A stretch of DNA of 64,000 nucleotides from Paenibacillus albus (GCF_003952225.1 NZ_CP034437.1:399001-463000), one strand, 5' to 3'; shown: positions 26,962 to 36,545, counted from the first letter of the stretch. The notes: a model not told the origin generated them from the sequence alone. A program made the numbers and translations.

Positions 26962-27972
26962 TTACACCGCGGTTGTATTGCCCGGCTGCTCTTCCGCCAA
27001 CGTAGAAGCAGCAGCAACACCGTCGCTCAATACGCCTAGCTCAGCCGAGGCTTCCGCCTCTTCGCGTGCTTTGGCCTCTGCCAGAAGCGCAAGCTTTCGC
27101 TGCCTCGCGAGCAGCACGAATACCATCACATAGTAGAGCCAGTACAGCGCGAATTCTTCCAAAGATGGGTCCTGCGTATAGCCAAGGAACGCTTTGAAGA
27201 AGATGCCCACCTGCCCGTTTAATATCGGATGATGCCCTGTATCGCGAATATAGTTCGTTTCGTCGATCGGATGCTCCGGCATGAACCAAGTCAGATCGTA
27301 CATCGCGCCGATCTCGCCGCCAGGCGTCTTATACAGGCTGCCGATAATGCGCAAATCCTGCATAACCCCAATCGCCTGAACGAACAGGCCGGCAGCGATC
27401 ATAATGAGGAATATGCTCGTCACCCTGAAGAAGGTGCTGATCTTAATCCGCTTGCTGCCTTTGAATACGGCAACGCCGAGCAGACCAGCTGCGACAAGTC
27501 CAGCCAAAGCTCCCCAGCTCTGAATCGCTTTCGAAATGTCGCCAGAGGAGATCGCCGCGAAGAAGAAGACCGTCTCTACCCCTTCACGCAGCGTGACGAG
27601 GAAGGAGTGCACAATCATATTGATTGCACCGCCGGCACCGAGAATGAGCGCCACTTTATTTTGCAGCTTGCTTCGCATCTCTTGATTCTGCTTGCCCATA
27701 AACAAGATCATATGCGTTAACAACCCTGATGACACAAGCAAAATACCAATACGCAAATATTCTCTGCTGCCCATTGTCGCATATCCATCGAGCACGATCT
27801 GGAACACGAGTGCAACACCCAGGCTCGCGAGGATCGCCATAAACACTCCGACCCACACCCACTTATTCCATTTGCTCTGCCCGATCCGATTCAAATACGT
27901 AATGATAATGCCGACAATGAGAATCGCTTCGAACGCTTCGCGGAATGTGATGAGAAATGCCTGCAAATTCAT
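26962..27972 (-). CDS. efeU: FTR1-family high-affinity iron permease (EfeU-like)
   Basis: Integral membrane iron transporter of 336 residues with about seven transmembrane helices. Both iron-binding REXXE motifs are present: REAFE (11-15) and REGVE (129-133). In the EfeUOB type, EfeO and EfeB accompany the permease, but here the two upstream genes encode different extracellular proteins. Insertions in this copy include an extracellular loop with WFMPEHPIDETNYIRDTGHH before the last helix, and a cytoplasmic Ala/Glu-rich tail. AAGGAG precedes the ATG. It is the last gene of a Fur-type operon. Confidence 0.92.
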   Translation of the reverse strand: MNLQAFLITFREAFEAILIVGIIITYLNRIGQSKWNKWVWVGVFMAILASLGVALVFQIVLDGYATMGSREYLRIGILLVSSGLLTHMILFMGKQNQEMRSKLQNKVALILGAGGAINMIVHSFLVTLREGVETVFFFAAISSGDISKAIQSWGALAGLVAAGLLGVAVFKGSKRIKISTFFRVTSIFLIMIAAGLFVQAIGVMQDLRIIGSLYKTPGGEIGAMYDLTWFMPEHPIDETNYIRDTGHHPILNGQVGIFFKAFLGYTQDPSLEEFALYWLYYVMVFVLLARQRKLALLAEAKAREEAEASAELGVLSDGVAAASTLAEEQPGNTTAV

Positions 27973-28060
27973 GGAACGCTCACTCCTTATACCATCCTAA
28001 ATACGCATACCCGCCCTGCGAAGAGGACGGGCAAGCATGGGCGCAGCTAGTGAAAGGCGC

Positions 28061-29551
28061 CTATTTAATAACGATGATTTGACCTTTTTCAAAGTAAATG
28101 TGGTTGCCTGAAAGCTCAGCAATTGCACGAAGCGGCAGATAAGTGACATTGTCTTTCACGACAACAGCCTGATCCAGCTTGAAGTCAGCGATGGCTTCAC
28201 CATTCTTCGTTACAACGTCGCTGCCGATAGTAAGTCCCAGTGTTACTCCGTCTTTTGTTACTTTTGCCGTCTTCGTCGCGTTATCGAAGCTTACGACGAA
28301 GCCGAGCAGCTCCAAATAACGAGTCGGTACAAGCGTGCGGCCAGTTGCCTTCTCGATGAACGATGGCGTTACATCCTGCGCTTTGCCATTAACAACAACT
28401 TGCTTGTCGCCGGCTTTGAACGAAATGCCGTCAAGCTGTACAGCGTAGGACGCCATTTGGTAACCGATCGCGCGAACTTTGTCCGCATCGCCTGCAGCGG
28501 ATGCCGCAAGAATATCGTCATTCAGATGCTTCGCTTCTGCATATACGCCTGGTGCGTAGAACGGCTCCAATGCTGCGAAGAAGCCATACAGCTCGCCGCC
28601 TGTGCCAGCTGCGCCTGCTACGTCTTTCTTCTCAAGCTTCTCTAGAATCTCAATCGTGTACGCACTAACCTTAGCAACGTTACAGCGGATGAGCGCTTGG
28701 CGAATTGCAGCTGCATTAATTTGCTTCGGATCGCCTGAACCGAATGCCTTGAAGACAACATCTGCATCAACAGCGTCACCGCCGTGCAGGTAACCATAAA
28801 CGCTCATAAAGTAGAAGTAGCCTTCGATTACAGCTGCAGGCTGCTCGTCAGCAGACAGGCTCTTCATGCGGTCTGCTTGTGCAAGAGTAGCGAGATTGAA
28901 GATTTTGATCAATGTTTTGTCAAGCAATTGACGGTGAACGTTAAGCTGCGTCACGTCTTTGCTGTCAATATCGGATTTGAAAGCCGGGAATACGGTTTGG
29001 TTCAACAACGCGGAGGTTGTCGTGCCATAAGTGCTGTCTACCATCTTCGCAGTAGCGTCGAGCACGTCTGTGTAAACAAGCGCAGCCTTCGAGATGAATG
29101 CTTGAGCACCAGCTTGGTCGCCAGCTGTCAATGCACCCTTCGCGCCTGTGTTTGTCAGGTTCTTAATTAGGAAGTAGAAGTACCATTGAAGCCCTTTATC
29201 AACAGCTTGTTCAGCTTGCGCATATGTAAGCTTGCCCTCAACCGCATTATCAAGAACGAAACGAATGTTTTCGTTCACGACAGGGTCGCCGGCTTTGATG
29301 CTGCCATCAACGCCAAGGACATTTTTCTCAAAATCAGCTACGTATTGCGCTTTTATGTCGGCGATCGCTTTCTTCTGTTCAAACATGCCTAAGATGTTCT
29401 TGTAAGCAGCTAGTTGTGGAGCAACGTCCGTATTGACCGGTGCCTTCTGTGGTGAGTCGTCAGCGAATGCAGTAGCAGCAAAAGCAAATACAGCAGCTGC
29501 AAGCATCGTAACAGTGAGTAGGATGGACAATGACTTCTTGAATCGGTTCAT
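28061..29551 (-). CDS. Secreted helical protein with C-terminal copper amine oxidase-like (stalk) domain, in the FTR1 operon
   Basis: Extracellular protein of 496 residues. It has a signal peptide (1-30, ending ATAFADD), a long alpha-helical region (about 35-370) without cysteines for haem or iron-sulfur, and a C-terminal Cu_amine_oxidN1 module (about 375-496) with typical repeats RTLVPTRYLELLGF and VTYLPLRAIAELSG. That module is common in Paenibacillus secreted proteins and is not the catalytic oxidase domain. Place in the operon, between the anchored protein and the permease, suggests a role in capturing or delivering iron; this is inference. It has no EfeO peptidase-M75 signature that I can see. 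Confidence 0.8.
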   Translation of the reverse strand: MNRFKKSLSILLTVTMLAAAVFAFAATAFADDSPQKAPVNTDVAPQLAAYKNILGMFEQKKAIADIKAQYVADFEKNVLGVDGSIKAGDPVVNENIRFVLDNAVEGKLTYAQAEQAVDKGLQWYFYFLIKNLTNTGAKGALTAGDQAGAQAFISKAALVYTDVLDATAKMVDSTYGTTTSALLNQTVFPAFKSDIDSKDVTQLNVHRQLLDKTLIKIFNLATLAQADRMKSLSADEQPAAVIEGYFYFMSVYGYLHGGDAVDADVVFKAFGSGDPKQINAAAIRQALIRCNVAKVSAYTIEILEKLEKKDVAGAAGTGGELYGFFAALEPFYAPGVYAEAKHLNDDILAASAAGDADKVRAIGYQMASYAVQLDGISFKAGDKQVVVNGKAQDVTPSFIEKATGRTLVPTRYLELLGFVVSFDNATKTAKVTKDGVTLGLTIGSDVVTKNGEAIADFKLDQAVVVKDNVTYLPLRAIAELSGNHIYFEKGQIIVIK

Positions 29552-29643
29552 CAGTTCAACTCTCCCAAATAATTAAATTTAAATAATTCCAATAGAAACG
29601 GCTTTCGCCGGCTTTTGGCACAAAGAAGGATGAAGAGATAATG

Positions 29644-30909
29644 TTAGAAAATGCCTTTGCGGCGAGCCCACCATACGGCCCCCGCTCCTACAAGAACGAC
29701 GCCTCCAATGACGCTAATCGTTACAGCAGGGTTGGTCTTGCTCTCGTGGGCCATCGGCGCATGCGCCTTCGTTCCGTCAATTACTTCCGGTTCAGCTGCT
29801 GCTATTGTTGCGTCAGCCGCTGCCGTATCATCGGCAACTGCAGTGTCATTACCTTTTGATTCCGCGTTGTTGGTTGCTGCCGCATCATTCGTCGCTGCCG
29901 CATTACCAGCGGTATCTGCCGTCTTGGTGTCGTCAGCTGCTTGATTCGCATCAGCAGCATTCGATGATTGATCTGGCGCCGAGGCGTCATCTGCAGGTGC
30001 TTCAGTTGAAGTCTCTTTGCTAGAATCATCCTTGGCTGGTTTGTCCGCCTTATTCGCACTCGTTGCGTCTGCGCCGGACTTGCTATCATTAGCTGCCGGT
30101 TTATCGGATGCTGCCGCGCCTGTGGTCGTTGTACCCTTATCGGGCTGCTTCGTTGTGTTCGAACCCGTAGACGGCTTCGTTGTGCTGCCTGTCGCAGCGA
30201 CCGTTGAACCGCTTGCTGTTGTACCTTTGCCTGTCGATGCGTTTGTTTCCGGCTTCGCGGCGGTTCCAGTTCCGGTACCCGCAGCAGGCTTCGTCGTCTC
30301 CGCCTTGTAAGGCGTGAAAGGGAACAGCGGTCTAAGCACACTGTAAATCTGGTTTACCGCTGCTTTCAGCGATGCTTCGTCAGGGTCCTTCTTGCCGACG
30401 CCGAACAGTCCAGGATTGCCGATTGCCTCAAGTGCAGTGTCAAAGTCCTTCGAGAGGCCATCCAACTTCGCCGATGATAGCTTCGACTCCGCATACGGCG
30501 ACAACGTTTCGAACGTCGCGCGCGCCTTCGCAAGAAGCAGCTTCGCCTTCGTGTAATCCTTGTAATCGTGAAGCGCGTTCTCAAAGCGGCGATCTAAATT
30601 CATAATAAGAATCGCCTTATAGTTAGCAATCGTCTCAGTTGTCTTATGTGCTTTGATATCCGCATCCAGCGTTGCCGCAACGGCTTCGCCGAAGTGAGAA
30701 GCGATTTCGTCACGCCGTTCCTTATGCGCTGCTTGTGCCGTGTTCCAATCGACCGGATTCTTCCCAAGCGATGAAACGACCAGCTTGAACGTTTCCGCTA
30801 CATCCTCGGTATTGGCATCGCCATACGAATAAGCCCATACACTCGTAGGTGCCAAGACCAGAAAAATCGCGACAACAAGCGTTGCGATTCTCATTGACCT
30901 CATGCGCAT
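29644..30909 (-). CDS. Membrane-anchored extracellular protein with helical head and low-complexity stalk, first gene of the FTR1 operon
   Basis: Protein of 421 residues with signal peptide (about 1-26, PTSVWA-YS), a helical domain (about 30-200), a Thr/Ala/Asp/Lys-rich disordered stalk (about 205-385) and a C-terminal transmembrane helix (about 391-412) followed by RRKGIF, giving a type I surface protein. The helical head loosely resembles the extracytoplasmic helical region found at the N-terminus of some FTR1 proteins, which is inference. The ATG at 30909 has AAGGTGA 9 nt upstream. A consensus promoter overlapped by a Fur box lies about 80 nt upstream. Function in iron capture is proposed from context only. 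Confidence 0.78.
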   Translation of the reverse strand: MRMRSMRIATLVVAIFLVLAPTSVWAYSYGDANTEDVAETFKLVVSSLGKNPVDWNTAQAAHKERRDEIASHFGEAVAATLDADIKAHKTTETIANYKAILIMNLDRRFENALHDYKDYTKAKLLLAKARATFETLSPYAESKLSSAKLDGLSKDFDTALEAIGNPGLFGVGKKDPDEASLKAAVNQIYSVLRPLFPFTPYKAETTKPAAGTGTGTAAKPETNASTGKGTTASGSTVAATGSTTKPSTGSNTTKQPDKGTTTTGAAASDKPAANDSKSGADATSANKADKPAKDDSSKETSTEAPADDASAPDQSSNAADANQAADDTKTADTAGNAAATNDAAATNNAESKGNDTAVADDTAAADATIAAAEPEVIDGTKAHAPMAHESKTNPAVTISVIGGVVLVGAGAVWWARRKGIF

Positions 30910-30983
30910 AATTGCAACTCACCTTCCAAAAGTCTTAATCGCCATGCAGTGACTCCCAGGTTTTCTCAAAGTCTACGCTAGTA

Positions 30984-31012
30984 ATGATAATCATTTTCAA
31001 TTAGGGTGTCAA
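30984..31012 (-). promoter_or_regulatory. Sigma-A promoter of the FTR1 iron operon
   Basis: Minus strand: perfect TTGACA (31007-31012), 17-nt spacer, TATCAT (30984-30989). The leader to the first gene is about 70 nt. The -10 and spacer are overlapped by the Fur box, so repression by occlusion is expected. Confidence 0.82.
30985..30999. promoter_or_regulatory. Fur box over the iron-operon promoter
   Basis: TGATAAT-C-ATTTTCA matches the 7-1-7 Fur operator (TGATAAT-N-ATTATCA) at 13 of the 14 defined positions. It covers the -10 box of a consensus promoter in front of an iron permease operon, which makes iron-dependent repression the natural reading. Confidence 0.82.
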
Positions 31013-31328: not shown

Positions 31329-32972
31329 TTACTGGTTCTTGTCGCCAATCCACCTATATAAGGTGATCTCGTTGTAGACAGGCTCAAAGAGCGGATCGCT
31401 GCGATAAACTGCGATTGGCTGAACCTTATCCCGCAGCGAGCCAACCTGAGCTTCAAAGCCTTGCAGCACATGATCCGTCAGCAAAATCTCTGCCTTAGGA
31501 TCTGCCTGCACATCCGCGAGGAAGTACGCGTATGTCTCAATCCGCCGGTTCGTCACCGGGCAATGCAAGTACTGAAGGACGCGCATTTCCTCCCACGTGT
31601 ACACGACGAACCGCTGGTCCGAATGGCTATCCGCAAGCTGGCGCAGCCCTTGCGCAAGCTGATAGACGGCGGGCGTTTCTTCCGCCTGCCGTGCTACAAG
31701 CGCGCTGCCTGCAGTCGCCTGCAGCGCAATGACACAGGCGGCGCAGAGCACGCCCGCCGCCTGCAGTACGCGGCGAATGCGTGCGCCGCGCTCTTGCTGC
31801 TGCGCAGCAGCCGGCGCAGCCGTGCAGCACATCGCAAGCAGCAGCCATACCACGCCGATTAGCGGCGTGATATGGCGTGGCTTGTCGATGTTCTGCGCCA
31901 GCAGCGCCCAGGCGCCGTAGGCGCTCGCGAGCACGGCGAGCGCCCCCGGCAGCGCCGGGCGGCATAGCCATGCCGCCGCCCGGTGCGCCAAAGGCGCGCG
32001 CGTGCGCGCGCTGCCGCGGGGCGGGCGTGCCGCCTCCGCGGCGAGCACGGCGGCGAAGGTAAGCCCCGCCGCCGCTGTGAGCAGTGCCGTGGACCGGGCG
32101 AACATGCCGGTCCACAGCACGTTGTCGCCGGCGAAGCGCAGCAGCCGCGCGGCGAAGCTGATCTTGGCGGCGGAGGTTACGCCGCCGCCCCATTCACTGA
32201 AATGGCCCTCGGTGAAGGCGAGGGCCAGCTGCAGGAACCCGCGCAGCCCGCCTTCGCTCAGGGCTAGCCCAGCCACCCACAGCAGCTCGAAGCCTGCCGC
32301 GAGCAGCACGAACAGAATTGCACGTGGCAAAGCCCGCTTCCCTTGCCGACGCCAATCAAGAACATGCAGCGCCAGCAGCCACAGCAGGCCAACGCCGAAG
32401 GCGACAAAAGACAGCCTGATTCCCATCATCAGGCTGAAGAAGAACAGCGCTGCTGCTGAGCGCCGCCAAGTACGCCGTTCCATGGCTCGCCACCAGCTCC
32501 ACAGGAACCACCAGAGCATGGCAATGCCTGCCGCTTCTGACATCGGCCGCACAGCTTGCAACCACAGATACGGCGCTGTCAGCACGAGCAGCACCGCAAG
32601 CGCCGTCCATAGTGGAGACAGCACTCGCCGCGCGAGAAGCCAGAGTGGAATAATTGACAACGCAAGCAGTCCGATATTCAGCGTGTCATAGGCAAGCACC
32701 GGATTCTGCATGAACCGCTGCACCAGCATCGCTCCCGCCACGAAATACGGATATCCCGGAAAATGCGGCTGCATCGCCAGAAGATCAAACCGGCTAAGCG
32801 CCAGTACAAAATCAACCTCGTCCCAGCTGCCAACAAACCGACTCCGATGCTGCAAGCTGTACAGCACCCAAAGCAATACCCCAATAACAACAAAAGCCGG
32901 CGCGGCGACCGACTTCACAACACGCTTATAGCTGCTCTCAACCTGCAGATGATTCTTTTCTCGCCGCCGCAC
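31329..32972 (-). CDS. GT-C-fold membrane glycosyltransferase (PMT/ArnT-like)
   Basis: Integral membrane protein of 547 residues with about ten transmembrane helices. The first external loop carries the GT-C acidic motif GSWDEVDF (about 49-56), where the Asp or Glu acts with the lipid-phosphate sugar donor. Such enzymes use undecaprenyl-phosphate sugars made by GT2 synthases, and a GT2 gene lies directly upstream. The start is GTG 32972 with GAGGTGG close by; exact start uncertain because 139 bp separate it from the GT2 stop. The middle part (31750-32300) is very GC-rich. Acceptor unknown. Confidence 0.8.
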   Translation of the reverse strand: MRRREKNHLQVESSYKRVVKSVAAPAFVVIGVLLWVLYSLQHRSRFVGSWDEVDFVLALSRFDLLAMQPHFPGYPYFVAGAMLVQRFMQNPVLAYDTLNIGLLALSIIPLWLLARRVLSPLWTALAVLLVLTAPYLWLQAVRPMSEAAGIAMLWWFLWSWWRAMERRTWRRSAAALFFFSLMMGIRLSFVAFGVGLLWLLALHVLDWRRQGKRALPRAILFVLLAAGFELLWVAGLALSEGGLRGFLQLALAFTEGHFSEWGGGVTSAAKISFAARLLRFAGDNVLWTGMFARSTALLTAAAGLTFAAVLAAEAARPPRGSARTRAPLAHRAAAWLCRPALPGALAVLASAYGAWALLAQNIDKPRHITPLIGVVWLLLAMCCTAAPAAAQQQERGARIRRVLQAAGVLCAACVIALQATAGSALVARQAEETPAVYQLAQGLRQLADSHSDQRFVVYTWEEMRVLQYLHCPVTNRRIETYAYFLADVQADPKAEILLTDHVLQGFEAQVGSLRDKVQPIAVYRSDPLFEPVYNEITLYRWIGDKNQ

Positions 32973-33111: not shown

Positions 33112-33870
33112 CTACTTCTCCCCACTCATGGCAACCGCCTGCGCCTTCTTCGGGGCAGCGGCCCGCTTCCTGCTCACAGGTCGGCGCATTTCCTTCCACA
33201 CCGCCGGCAGCACGTTCGTCATATATTTATTGAACTTGATGAACGATTCACCATGCTCCCGCACCTGATACGTAATCGGCACCTCTTCCATCCTGAAGCC
33301 TTGACGGACCAGATTCAGCGTCAGCACCTGCGCGTAGTTGTAATCATGGATAATTTCCGCCCGCTCCATTGCCGCCCGCGAGAAGCCGCGCATGCCGGAC
33401 TGGCCGTCCCAAATCATCCTGCGAAGCAGCAGCGCCTGCAGCATTGTGAAGCAATAATTGCCGAGTCGACGGTGCAGCTTCATCCCGCGGATGACGCCTT
33501 TGAACCGCGATCCCATCGTATAATCAGCGCGCCCTTCCCAGATTGGAGCGATTACGATCGGTATTTCCTCTGCCGGATACTCGTTATCCGCATCAATCAT
33601 CAGCCCAATATCCGCACCGAGACGCACACAGGAGGCAAGCCCCTCTCGGACCGCAGCGCCAAGCCCACGGTTACGTGCGTGTGAAACAATATGCTCAGCG
33701 CCCGCAGCCCTTGCTTCCTTAACCGTACCGTCAGTTGACCCGTCATCAATAACGAGCACCTCCACCTGCCAGCCGGGATGAGGCGTGCGCGGAATACGAG
33801 CGATTACTTTCCCGATATTGCCTTCTTCGTTATGCGCCGGCAGGAATACGACCAGCTTCTTCTTGTCCAT
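33112..33870 (-). CDS. GT2-family glycosyltransferase (polyprenyl-phosphate sugar synthase-like)
   Basis: GT-A fold glycosyltransferase of 252 residues from the chosen start. It begins with VVFLPAHNEEGNIG, has the nucleotide loop VIDDGSTDGT and the metal motif MIDADNEYP. It resembles DPM1-like polyprenyl-phosphate mannosyl/glucosyl transferases, without C-terminal membrane helices. ATG 33870 begins the family homology; an extension to 33921 adds a basic stretch. It overlaps the 3' end of the phosphatase-family gene by 41 bp. It may supply the donor for the GT-C enzyme downstream; inferred from order. Confidence 0.85.
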   Translation of the reverse strand: MDKKKLVVFLPAHNEEGNIGKVIARIPRTPHPGWQVEVLVIDDGSTDGTVKEARAAGAEHIVSHARNRGLGAAVREGLASCVRLGADIGLMIDADNEYPAEEIPIVIAPIWEGRADYTMGSRFKGVIRGMKLHRRLGNYCFTMLQALLLRRMIWDGQSGMRGFSRAAMERAEIIHDYNYAQVLTLNLVRQGFRMEEVPITYQVREHGESFIKFNKYMTNVLPAVWKEMRRPVSRKRAAAPKKAQAVAMSGEK

Positions 33871-35368
33871 GCAGCACAGCTTCTTTCTCTGATTTAATCG
33901 TCTTTCCTGTTTCAAAAGCATCCATTAATACCGGTCCGCGACTATGGCTTGGCAGCGGCGCACCCAGCAGATAGCTAAGCGTTGGCGCTACCGATACAAG
34001 CGACTGCTTGGCATCGACTTTGACGCCCTGCCGCACGTTCGGACCATGCATGAAGAACGGCACGTACCGTTCGCCTTCGTCCAAATGTCCATGCCCGCCG
34101 ATTCCATCGGCCTGTCCATGATCGGCGCATACGATGAACGTTGCGTCCTCCGCGTGCCCATTTACCTCAAGCCACTGCACGAACTCGGCTATGAGCGCGT
34201 CAGCTTCTTCGATCTTTTGCCGGTACTCATCGTACAGCGCTCCCATGCTATGTCCGGTCTGATCCGTTGCAATGAACTGCACGATCAAGAGATCCGGGTT
34301 CTGCTCCGCCATAATGAGCTTTGCGCGCTCCATAATGTTACGGTCGGCTTTATCGTTATGCATAACTGCCGTGACGCTCTCTACATCATCGCCCATCGAA
34401 TCAATGAGGTGCGCGATGCCGAGCAGCCTTCCGACTTTGCCAACCTTCCGCAAGCTGTCGAAGATCGACTCGACTTTAATGCCAAGCTTCCACACCATGT
34501 TGGACGTAATGCCGTGTTCGCGCGGATACGTGCCTGTAAACATCGAAGAGAAACAGACGACCGTTCTCGCCGGATACAACGTCTCCATCTGCGTATATTC
34601 CGCACCTGCTGCCCGCCACCTTTTCAGGAAAGGAGCATCTGCCTCCTCGAACCGATCCTTCCGCATACCGTCAATGACAAGCACGAACACCTTGCCTTTA
34701 GCTGGCTGCTCCGGCGGCTGTACAGGAACCGTGTAATTCGGAATTTCTTTCGGCTTCCAATCGAATAGATTGCGGTGCAGAATGAATGCGTACACCGCTA
34801 CGCCAACGACGAACAAGCAATAGCTGCCCCAGCCAAAATCGCCCGCAGACCCGCTCCCATCGACCCAATATCCGCCTGCTACGTCAACAACGAAGAGAAG
34901 AAGCAGAAACTTCGGCAGCTGCTCCTGCGCATTGCCGCTCGTGGAATCGCTGTTCTTCAGCACGAGCTTCCAGAACCGTTTGAAATTCCACCATGACGTT
35001 CCGATCCTGAGGTGGTAATAGAACGTGCCCCAGAAGTAGATCGTAAAGAATAGAAACAGGAGCGTCGCAGTCGCATACAGCCCCAGATCAAGCGGCGCAT
35101 CACGCCACAGCACGAGCGCAGCAACAACCGGTAGCCACAGATAGTTACGTAGAAACAGCGGAAAATCATAATAGAAATACAGCGCTAACAGCGGAAGCGC
35201 CGCTAGCAGCCCCAGTCCAAACTGCCCCCAGAAACTCGCCATTCCCCACTGATTCATATGATAGAGCGCGTACGTGCCGATAACGAATATCGGCGTGAAC
35301 GGCTTCCCCTCATTCAGCAAATTCCAGCAGCGCGCCGCTACAATCTCAAACCTCGACGCCTTCTTCAT
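33830..35368 (-). CDS. Membrane alkaline-phosphatase-superfamily protein (type I phosphodiesterase/nucleotide pyrophosphatase)
   Basis: Protein of 512 residues. About six transmembrane segments occupy roughly 20-215, followed by an extracytoplasmic phosphodiesterase domain. Metal and nucleophile motifs are visible: VFVLVIDGMRKDRF (metal Asp), YPARTVVCFSSMFTG (Thr/Ser nucleophile region), ATDQTGHSMG and CADHGQADGIGGHGH (metal Asp/His). The ATG at 35368 overlaps the upstream stop (ATGA) and has GAGGGG upstream; a longer reading to 35404 is rejected. It may remove or transfer a phospho-group on a lipid or glycan. It is not an LtaS-type sulfatase by motif. Substrate unknown. Confidence 0.85.
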   Translation of the reverse strand: MKKASRFEIVAARCWNLLNEGKPFTPIFVIGTYALYHMNQWGMASFWGQFGLGLLAALPLLALYFYYDFPLFLRNYLWLPVVAALVLWRDAPLDLGLYATATLLFLFFTIYFWGTFYYHLRIGTSWWNFKRFWKLVLKNSDSTSGNAQEQLPKFLLLLFVVDVAGGYWVDGSGSAGDFGWGSYCLFVVGVAVYAFILHRNLFDWKPKEIPNYTVPVQPPEQPAKGKVFVLVIDGMRKDRFEEADAPFLKRWRAAGAEYTQMETLYPARTVVCFSSMFTGTYPREHGITSNMVWKLGIKVESIFDSLRKVGKVGRLLGIAHLIDSMGDDVESVTAVMHNDKADRNIMERAKLIMAEQNPDLLIVQFIATDQTGHSMGALYDEYRQKIEEADALIAEFVQWLEVNGHAEDATFIVCADHGQADGIGGHGHLDEGERYVPFFMHGPNVRQGVKVDAKQSLVSVAPTLSYLLGAPLPSHSRGPVLMDAFETGKTIKSEKEAVLHGQEEAGRIPAGA

Positions 35369-36339
35369 TTTACTTTCCCCTCTCCCTTGGGTCGCTGCAG
35401 CCATGTCCGCAGCTCTCTCATTGTGACGGCGCTCATCGCTAACGACACCGCACCGGTCACATAAGCAAACACAAATTTAAACCCATGCGATAACAGCGCC
35501 GCGGCAAAAGCGTCCCTGCCCGAAACGCCAAGCACGCCAAGCGATGCGGTCAGCGTCGTTTCGTAAGTACCAATTCCGCCCGGCGTAATATGAAACAGCT
35601 GCCCTGCGATCGTCATGCTCGTTACCCATATGGCTTCGAACGGGTTAATCGGCAGGTCAAGCACCCTTGTTACGCCATATACGACGGCTCCTTCCAGCAG
35701 CCAGCTTATCAGCGTTAGCAGCACCGATGCCGCTCCCTGTCTAGAAACCAGCGTCGATTGCAGCTTGCCATAATGCCGCAGCACAAGAGCGACTATACCT
35801 TTTCGCTCCGATTGAACTCGCCGGCCCATTCTGTATCGCTCGATCAGCAGCAGGACTAGCACACCAAGCACGGCCGCCGTCGCGACAACTAAGAACCAAG
35901 GCGAGGCCTCCAGCCCAAGCACCAGCGCGCCAACCGAACCAATGAGCAGCAGCGAAGCCATATCCAGAACTCTCATCACGGCAACCGAGTGCAGCGCGTC
36001 ATCCCAGCGCATCTTGGTTGACCTCGCCAGCAGTCCCACTCTTGCCAAGTCGCCAAGCTTCAGCGGCAGGACATGGTTCACAAGCAGGCTTACCAGCAGC
36101 GGATGTATGTAGCTCGATAAACGATCCACTTTGTCCCGTCTGGCATAGAGCCTCCAAGCAAGCGCCTTAAAGAAGAAGGACAATGCATAACCACCTGTCA
36201 TAAGCAGCAGCATCCCCGGCGCATGCAGCAGCTTAACCACACCGCTCCCAATCGCTTGACCATGAAAATACCGCCATGACAACCATATGAAGCAGGCTGC
36301 CATCATTAGCCCGCCTGCACGGATACCTATTTTGCGCAT
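35365..36339 (-). CDS. LPG-synthase-TM/UPF0104 integral membrane protein (flippase-like)
   Basis: Protein of 324 residues with about eight transmembrane helices, matching the membrane half of MprF and related UPF0104 proteins. Conserved pieces include LPLKLGDLARVGLL, the basic-acidic pair in the VMRVLDMASLL helix, and the C-terminal GGIGTYETTLTASLG segment. No aminoacyl-transfer domain is fused, so lysinylation of lipids is not implied; lipid or polyprenyl-sugar flipping is the usual suggestion. First gene of a four-gene operon (coupled by overlap to the next), with a Fur-like box about 45 nt upstream. Confidence 0.83.
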   Translation of the reverse strand: MRKIGIRAGGLMMAACFIWLSWRYFHGQAIGSGVVKLLHAPGMLLLMTGGYALSFFFKALAWRLYARRDKVDRLSSYIHPLLVSLLVNHVLPLKLGDLARVGLLARSTKMRWDDALHSVAVMRVLDMASLLLIGSVGALVLGLEASPWFLVVATAAVLGVLVLLLIERYRMGRRVQSERKGIVALVLRHYGKLQSTLVSRQGAASVLLTLISWLLEGAVVYGVTRVLDLPINPFEAIWVTSMTIAGQLFHITPGGIGTYETTLTASLGVLGVSGRDAFAAALLSHGFKFVFAYVTGAVSLAMSAVTMRELRTWLQRPKGEGKVK

Positions 36340-36382: not shown

Positions 36383-36397
36383 TGAGAACTATTATCA
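36383..36397. promoter_or_regulatory. Fur-like operator upstream of the glycolipid-like operon
   Basis: TGAGAAC-T-ATTATCA: the right arm is a perfect Fur half, the left arm differs at two of seven positions. It lies in the divergent gap, 44 bases upstream of the UPF0104 gene. A PerR or Zur site would look similar. No consensus promoter was found around it, which lowers confidence. Confidence 0.45.
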
Positions 36398-36545
36398 ATT
36401 AGTATAGAAGGGGATACATGACTTCGTCAAACCTTTTTCCAATTCTTCTTACATGACAATATTCTAACGTTCACATGACTGCATTCCCCGTATCCCATGA
36501 CAAGGTTCTGTTTACAGCTCGAACATTTTCATCAAAAATTAATTG

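Follow-up and report, generated by a model that had tools for sequence, protein, structure and literature searches.

A probable Fur-controlled iron-uptake cluster of Paenibacillus albus that combines a short FTR1 permease, two helical extracytoplasmic proteins and a linked set of putative glycosylation genes

In a 64,000-nucleotide stretch of the Paenibacillus albus genome, the whole of which we call the window, genes for two helical extracytoplasmic proteins (HEAD3 and HEAD2) and a short FTR1-family permease belong to a larger unit, and on balance we favor the view that this cluster is a Fur-controlled system for taking up inorganic iron, probably ferric, with a dedicated glycosylation arm. 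The first-pass annotation had described a three-gene operon; HEAD3, HEAD2 and FTR1 are present as described, but the account was incomplete because it missed four linked upstream genes. With these genes and a second promoter-like site, the unit reaches upstream to about position 36430. Its features are as follows.

26962 to 27972, minus strand: short FTR1-family iron permease (PF03239, E 7.3e-38), with two conserved REXXE motifs.
28061 to 29551, minus strand: HEAD2, 496 aa, with signal peptide, helical head and a Cu_amine_oxidN1 domain at 386-491.
29644 to 30909, minus strand: HEAD3, 421 aa, with signal peptide, helical head, stalk and C-terminal transmembrane segment (TM).
30984 to 31012, minus strand: sigma-70-type promoter of the HEAD3-HEAD2-FTR1 operon, TTGACA-N17-TATCAT, 11 of 12 consensus bases.
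30985 to 30999, no strand assigned: Fur box that departs from TGATAATNATTATCA at one position and overlaps the -10 element of that promoter.
31329 to 32972, minus strand: GT-C-like membrane glycosyltransferase, PMT_2-like (PF13231, E 8.8e-5, below the cut-off).
33112 to 33921, minus strand: GT2 polyprenyl-phosphate-sugar synthase, dolichol-phosphate-mannose-synthase-like (PF00535, E 1.3e-19), with a DxD motif.
33830 to 35404, minus strand: membrane-anchored alkaline-phosphatase-superfamily enzyme, type I phosphodiesterase-like (PF01663, E 3.5e-31), with catalytic-type motifs.
35365 to 36339, minus strand: LPG_synthase_TM (flippase-like) membrane protein (PF03706, E 2.7e-35).
36383 to 36430, minus strand: promoter-like TTGACG-N18-TATACT followed by the Fur-like box TGATAATAGTTCTCA, upstream of the flippase-first operon.

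The promoter and the overlapping 13-of-14 Fur box that had been reported for the HEAD3 operon are both there. The TTGACA hexamer lies at 31012-31007 and is separated by a 17-base spacer from TATCAT at 30989-30984, and the Fur box, with its single mismatch in 14, sits over this -10 element. A 19-base Fur consensus with three mismatches is found once in the window, compared with 0.02 expected by chance. The box upstream of the flippase-first operon, at 36397-36383, has two mismatches. We then used a scan of one genome per species, covering 84,980 species, which gave 194 HEAD3 loci, and we examined the best 80 of these, from Paenibacillus, Cohnella, Brevibacillus, Aneurinibacillus, Neobacillus, Anoxybacillus and other Bacilli. 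Fur boxes were sought within 210 bases around each gene start, with the other genes of the same loci as controls. Among these best 80 of 194 loci, a box with at most two mismatches precedes HEAD3 in 64 of 80, compared with 6 of 506 control genes (16 of 506 at up to three mismatches), these counts coming from related loci and so not being independent. Within the same best 80 of 194, a box at the two-mismatch threshold accompanies 31 of the 33 lipoprotein-type HEAD2 genes and 13 of the 57 flippase genes, the latter rising to 26 of 57 at up to three mismatches. Where the cluster is split, Fur boxes also precede the separated pieces (a lone GT2 gene in G126, a divergent phosphatase gene in G007 and three units in G006). 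Since the boxes are conserved across loci, the Fur control that had been proposed from the P. albus promoter is supported by the sequence comparison.

Linkage of HEAD3 to FTR1 is near-absolute, the two occurring together at 77 of the best 80 of 194 loci. At the same 80 loci, HEAD3 has as neighbors GT-C (76), HEAD2 (69), GT2 (68), the phosphatase (67) and the flippase-like gene (57). The commonest order among the best 80 of 194, LPG-ALP-GT-PMT-H3-H2-FTR1, accounts for 26 loci, and an interleaved order found in Bacillaceae, H2-epimerase-LPG-ALP-GT-H3-FTR1-PMT, accounts for 21; at 77 of the 80, all of the cluster genes are on one strand. When HEAD2 loci of the order are taken instead, GT2 and the phosphatase are present in 24 of 26, in several gene orders. 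An interleaved, co-stranded arrangement of this kind is not expected from chance neighborhood, and the flippase-like, phosphatase, GT2 and GT-C genes are part of the HEAD3-HEAD2-FTR1 unit.

The genes also share their distribution. Among 200 genomes of the order, HEAD3 is in 32 and HEAD2 in 33 (the same 32 and G194), and high-scoring matches to the short FTR1 (E 3e-35 or better) fall in the same 32 of the 200, the next match being at 1.7e-28. Matches to the phosphatase at E <1e-140 occur in 33 of the 200 genomes, namely the 32 with HEAD3 and G162. Across the phylum, HEAD2 and HEAD3 are found in exactly the same 8 of 398 genomes. The G162 phosphatase homologue (C1:4350592-4352031) is 47% identical, in a genome with neither HEAD2 nor HEAD3, and its neighborhood might give a clue to what the enzyme does. 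Paenibacillus cymbidii (L107 and L108; also G190 contigs C8 and C22) has two HEAD3-FTR1 loci, one of them lacking HEAD2.

A change of transporter provides the best indirect evidence that iron is what the module handles. At three loci from other families of the phylum (L196-L198, in G575, G237 and G373), HEAD3, HEAD2, GT2, the phosphatase, the flippase-like gene and GT-C are all kept, the cluster contains no FTR1, and an iron-binding substrate-binding protein (SBP), a two-part permease and an ATPase stand in its place. In family searches on the L197 copy, the SBP matched FutA 2pt1 at E 7.4e-102, and a Fur box with no or one mismatch precedes futA in the L196-L198 clusters. G373 has no FTR1 anywhere in its genome, and G575 and G237 each have an unlinked one. 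To our knowledge, FutABC and FbpABC transporters are usually encoded by themselves, with no HEAD2, HEAD3 or glycosylation genes alongside. The position of the module beside a ferric ABC transporter argues that it handles iron before transport, probably ferric iron and upstream of whichever importer is present. All three genomes encode Omp85, which is absent from the window genome and from two Bacilli tested, and they therefore probably have an outer membrane.

The four upstream genes could instead serve an independent remodeling of the envelope under iron stress, sharing with HEAD3, HEAD2 and FTR1 only Fur control and neighborhood. In Paenibacillus they do make up a transcription unit of their own, preceded by a promoter-like site, and similar three-component glycosylation systems modify teichoic acids (PMC8035078). 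Against this, Bacillaceae have these genes interspersed with HEAD3 and FTR1, the genes remain together despite rearrangements, the phosphatase is in the same 32 genomes, and the four genes accompany the module when the transporter changes. We therefore consider independent remodeling unlikely, although it is the most serious of the competing explanations, and prefer a glycosylation arm that belongs to the iron cluster.

The composition of this arm resembles the CsbB-GtcA-YfhO and GtlA-GtcA-GtlB systems in that a GT2 lipid-phosphate-sugar synthase is accompanied by a candidate for the flippase and by a putative GT-C-like transferase. The GT2 protein matches the dolichol-phosphate-mannose synthase (DPMS) structure 5mlz at E 3.6e-16. 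GT-C carries the motifs WDEVDF and MQPHFPGYP, the WDxxDF-type motif being conserved in 66 of 72 GT-C proteins, and scores 23.2 bits against PF13231, under the cut-off of 26.1. Unlike in the two known systems, the candidate flippase is an LPG_synthase_TM-type protein and not GtrA, there is an extra alkaline-phosphatase-superfamily enzyme, and the cluster has Fur boxes and an iron transporter and also occurs in genomes with Omp85. Among the cluster genes, Pfam and NCBI profiles found no flippase of GtrA or Wzx type, so that the PF03706/TIGR00374 protein (46.0 bits against TIGR00374, above the cut-off of 43.2) is the sole candidate. Conservation of the catalytic-type motifs makes it likely that the phosphatase and GT2 are active. 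We also considered the HEAD3 stalk as the sole target of the glycosyltransferase genes and rejected it: Bacillaceae HEAD3 proteins are about 250 aa and have no long stalk, all of the glycosyltransferase genes are still present there, and the stalk is thus not the general acceptor. Teichoic acid, for its part, is a less natural acceptor where the genome appears to specify an outer membrane. The Bacillaceae version of the cluster (L133:5749-6696 and similar loci) includes a GalE-like NDP-sugar epimerase gene, absent from the window cluster, which hints at the sugar used.

HEAD2 corresponds to the secreted helical protein with a copper-amine-oxidase stalk domain of the first-pass annotation. The C-terminal Cu_amine_oxidN1 domain at 386-491 is recognized by PF07833 at E 5.9e-22, and structure prediction with AlphaFold2 returned a confident, all-helical head (pLDDT 95.9). 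Fifteen of 23 HEAD2 heads match NF038033, the NCBIfam model for FEA1-related lipoproteins, at best with E 1.6e-12, and two HEAD2 relatives score 32.6 and 36.2 bits; no HEAD2 sequence was seen above the curated cut-off of 250 bits. The window HEAD2 has no direct match to NF038033 and finds NF038033-matching relatives at E 1e-12 to 1e-15. By these profile comparisons, HEAD2 is a remote relative of the FEA1-related lipoproteins, linked to them through its relatives, and not an M75 protein. As an M75 candidate it was rejected, hhalign giving 20% over 39 columns with no PF09375 or EfeO match. Compared with the algal FEA1/ISIP2a-type proteins, HEAD2 is bacterial and has a Cu_amine_oxidN1 tail, and its apparent similarity is remote. 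FEA1 is an algal iron-assimilation protein. In algae, Ot-Fea1 has been found in cells with iron bound to it, what FEA1 does in Chlamydomonas is a matter of debate (PMC4855317), and co-expression of the Chlamydomonas protein with FTR1 is reported in the title of a paper listed by PMC7676907 (Allen 2007). The best Foldseek matches of HEAD2 in the PDB had TMq of only 0.24-0.27 and VIA returned only general four-helix bundles, so that we assign it no PDB fold.

The first-pass annotation had also suggested that the two proteins may form a module for capture or oxidation of iron, and here the two halves of the proposal part. If HEAD2 and HEAD3 oxidized Fe(II) for FTR1, as is thought for Fet3 or EfeB, they would parallel yeast, where FTR1-type permeases work coupled to oxidation (PMC7676907), and the HEAD2 domain is after all named for the N-terminal part of copper amine oxidase. 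We saw no oxidase, haem or copper center, and the invariant residues of HEAD2 (K, D, Q, D, K, E and F) suggest that there is no copper or haem site. PF07833 is known as a non-catalytic stalk, and PF07833-like stretches recur at a dozen other sites in the host genome. The domain also alternates with a lipobox: among the best 80 of 194 loci, a lipobox is present in 31 of 69 HEAD2 proteins, including 28 of the 33 of lipoprotein type, and the Paenibacillus type comprises 33 long proteins that lack it and have Cu_amine_oxidN1 instead. This alternation makes Cu_amine_oxidN1 look like an attachment or retention domain and not a catalytic one. As the module is found beside a ferric ABC transporter as well, an oxidizing role seems to us very improbable. 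Iron capture is the half that is retained, through the remote homology of HEAD2 to FEA1-related proteins and the exchange of FTR1 for the ferric ABC transporter. Some loci have no HEAD2 (L093-L095, L102, L107 and L116), so HEAD2 may be dispensable, or encoded elsewhere, in these. At L198:9630-11969, in the genome without any FTR1, HEAD2 is tandemly duplicated.

HEAD3 is the anchored helical-stalk protein that had been predicted, with a head at about residues 27-205, an Ala/Thr-rich stalk at about 204-376, a HAPM motif and a TM at 393-411. The AlphaFold2 model of the head is likewise confident and all-helical (pLDDT 94.3), no Pfam family was matched, and a GNPGL motif is invariant. The closest named HEAD3 among the best 80 of 194 loci, from Paenibacillus sp. 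OV219, is 92% identical. A HAPM[EQ] motif immediately preceding the TM is conserved in 26 of the 80 HEAD3 proteins from the best 80 of 194 loci (window 29644-29800), where a metal-binding or anchoring role is possible, and the C-terminus matches the NCBI GVDTG sorting domain weakly, under the cut-off (E 0.0099). HEAD3 was also considered as the detached N-terminal domain of a YwbL-type FTR1 and rejected, with hhalign at 0.4%.

HEAD3 might alternatively be a strongly diverged EfeO/EfeM protein of the M75 family, which would make the system EfeUO-like with an extra protein. With the HEAD3 model as query, Foldseek does put EfeM 7q1g (E 0.026, probability 1.00, TMq 0.45) and EfeO 7wgu (E 0.055, probability 0.97, TMq 0.38) at the top of its ranking, both weak matches, and the HEAD3 profile weakly matches the alginate-binding protein Algp7 (E 0.08-0.10), which we take to be a relative of EfeM/EfeO. 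By VIA-align, however, EfeM and EfeO are outside the 50 best for the same model; neither Pfam PF09375 nor the NCBI EfeO profiles match HEAD3, and hhalign against M75 sequences covers only 35 columns at 47%. HEAD3 aligns instead with HEAD2, over 149 columns at 91-92%, whereas reversed and block-shuffled controls stay below 10%. From this profile alignment we conclude that HEAD3 probably consists of a single lobe related to the first half of HEAD2, and an M75 origin is improbable. Sequence searches found no solved relative of either protein, and the P19-type partner family of FetMP is absent from the Pfam matches of both. The description of the two partners as non-canonical therefore holds, with the weak EfeM/EfeO fold resemblance of HEAD3 as its one qualification.

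The permease had been called EfeU-type. Its membership of the FTR1 family is secure (130.9 bits against PF03239, cut-off 25.3) and both REXXE motifs, REAFE at 11 and REGVE at 129, are conserved in relatives, but at 176.5 bits it is below the NCBI equivalog cut-off of 255 for EfeU (NF041756). Similarly, EfeO and EfeB had been reported missing, and ORFs and family searches of the cluster genes show no M75 or DyP gene beside HEAD3-HEAD2-FTR1, but the host genome, searched as a single 6.63-Mb contig, has a complete EfeUOB at another locus (L003:6245-10287; C1 about 3632244-3636286). That locus encodes a long YwbL-type FTR1 and an EfeO and EfeB each above the NCBI cut-off, and HEAD3-HEAD2-FTR1 is thus a second FTR1 system. 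An apparent Fur-family regulator gene lies just upstream of EfeUOB (L003:5615-5998). The two systems in this genome are alike in having an FTR1-family permease, extracytoplasmic partners and a promoter Fur box; they differ in that the window cluster has other partners and a glycosylation arm, and its short FTR1 does not have the N-terminal domain found in the YwbL-type protein. Among the matches listed, other FTR1s of the order are mostly open frames of at least 400 codons, with G111 and G037 as exceptions.

We infer a scheme in which HEAD2 and HEAD3 would bind iron on the external side of the membrane, HEAD3 being fixed through its C-terminal TM and HEAD2 through a lipid anchor or, in Paenibacillus, through its Cu_amine_oxidN1 tail. 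The iron would be handed to the short FTR1, which itself lacks an extracellular domain, or in the three relatives that appear to bear an outer membrane to the FutA-type ferric ABC transporter. The flippase-like protein, GT2 and GT-C would make up a lipid-linked-sugar pathway whose product may be attached to HEAD2/HEAD3 or to an envelope polymer close by, and the alkaline-phosphatase-superfamily enzyme may edit or recycle this product. More tentatively, and with rather less than an even chance in our estimation, the whole may be a module that captures iron independently of the transporter and has its own lipid-linked-sugar pathway, directed at the iron-binding proteins or at a dedicated lipid glycan, serving FTR1 where outer-membrane genes are absent and FutABC where they are present. 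If true, this would amount to glycan-dependent iron capture and a bacterial counterpart of the algal FEA1 system.

The searched literature, whose coverage leaves out most subscription journals, contains no description of the cluster, which looks like a new route of surface iron gathering. Bacterial FTR1 permeases are known mainly with EfeO/EfeB or P19. The present cluster would add a third set of FTR1 partners, widespread in Bacilli, in which the main putative capture protein is remotely related to the algal FEA1 family, and a dedicated glycosylation pathway tied to an inorganic-ion importer would be unexpected. The module can be tested in culturable Neobacillus, Anoxybacillus and Paenibacillus.
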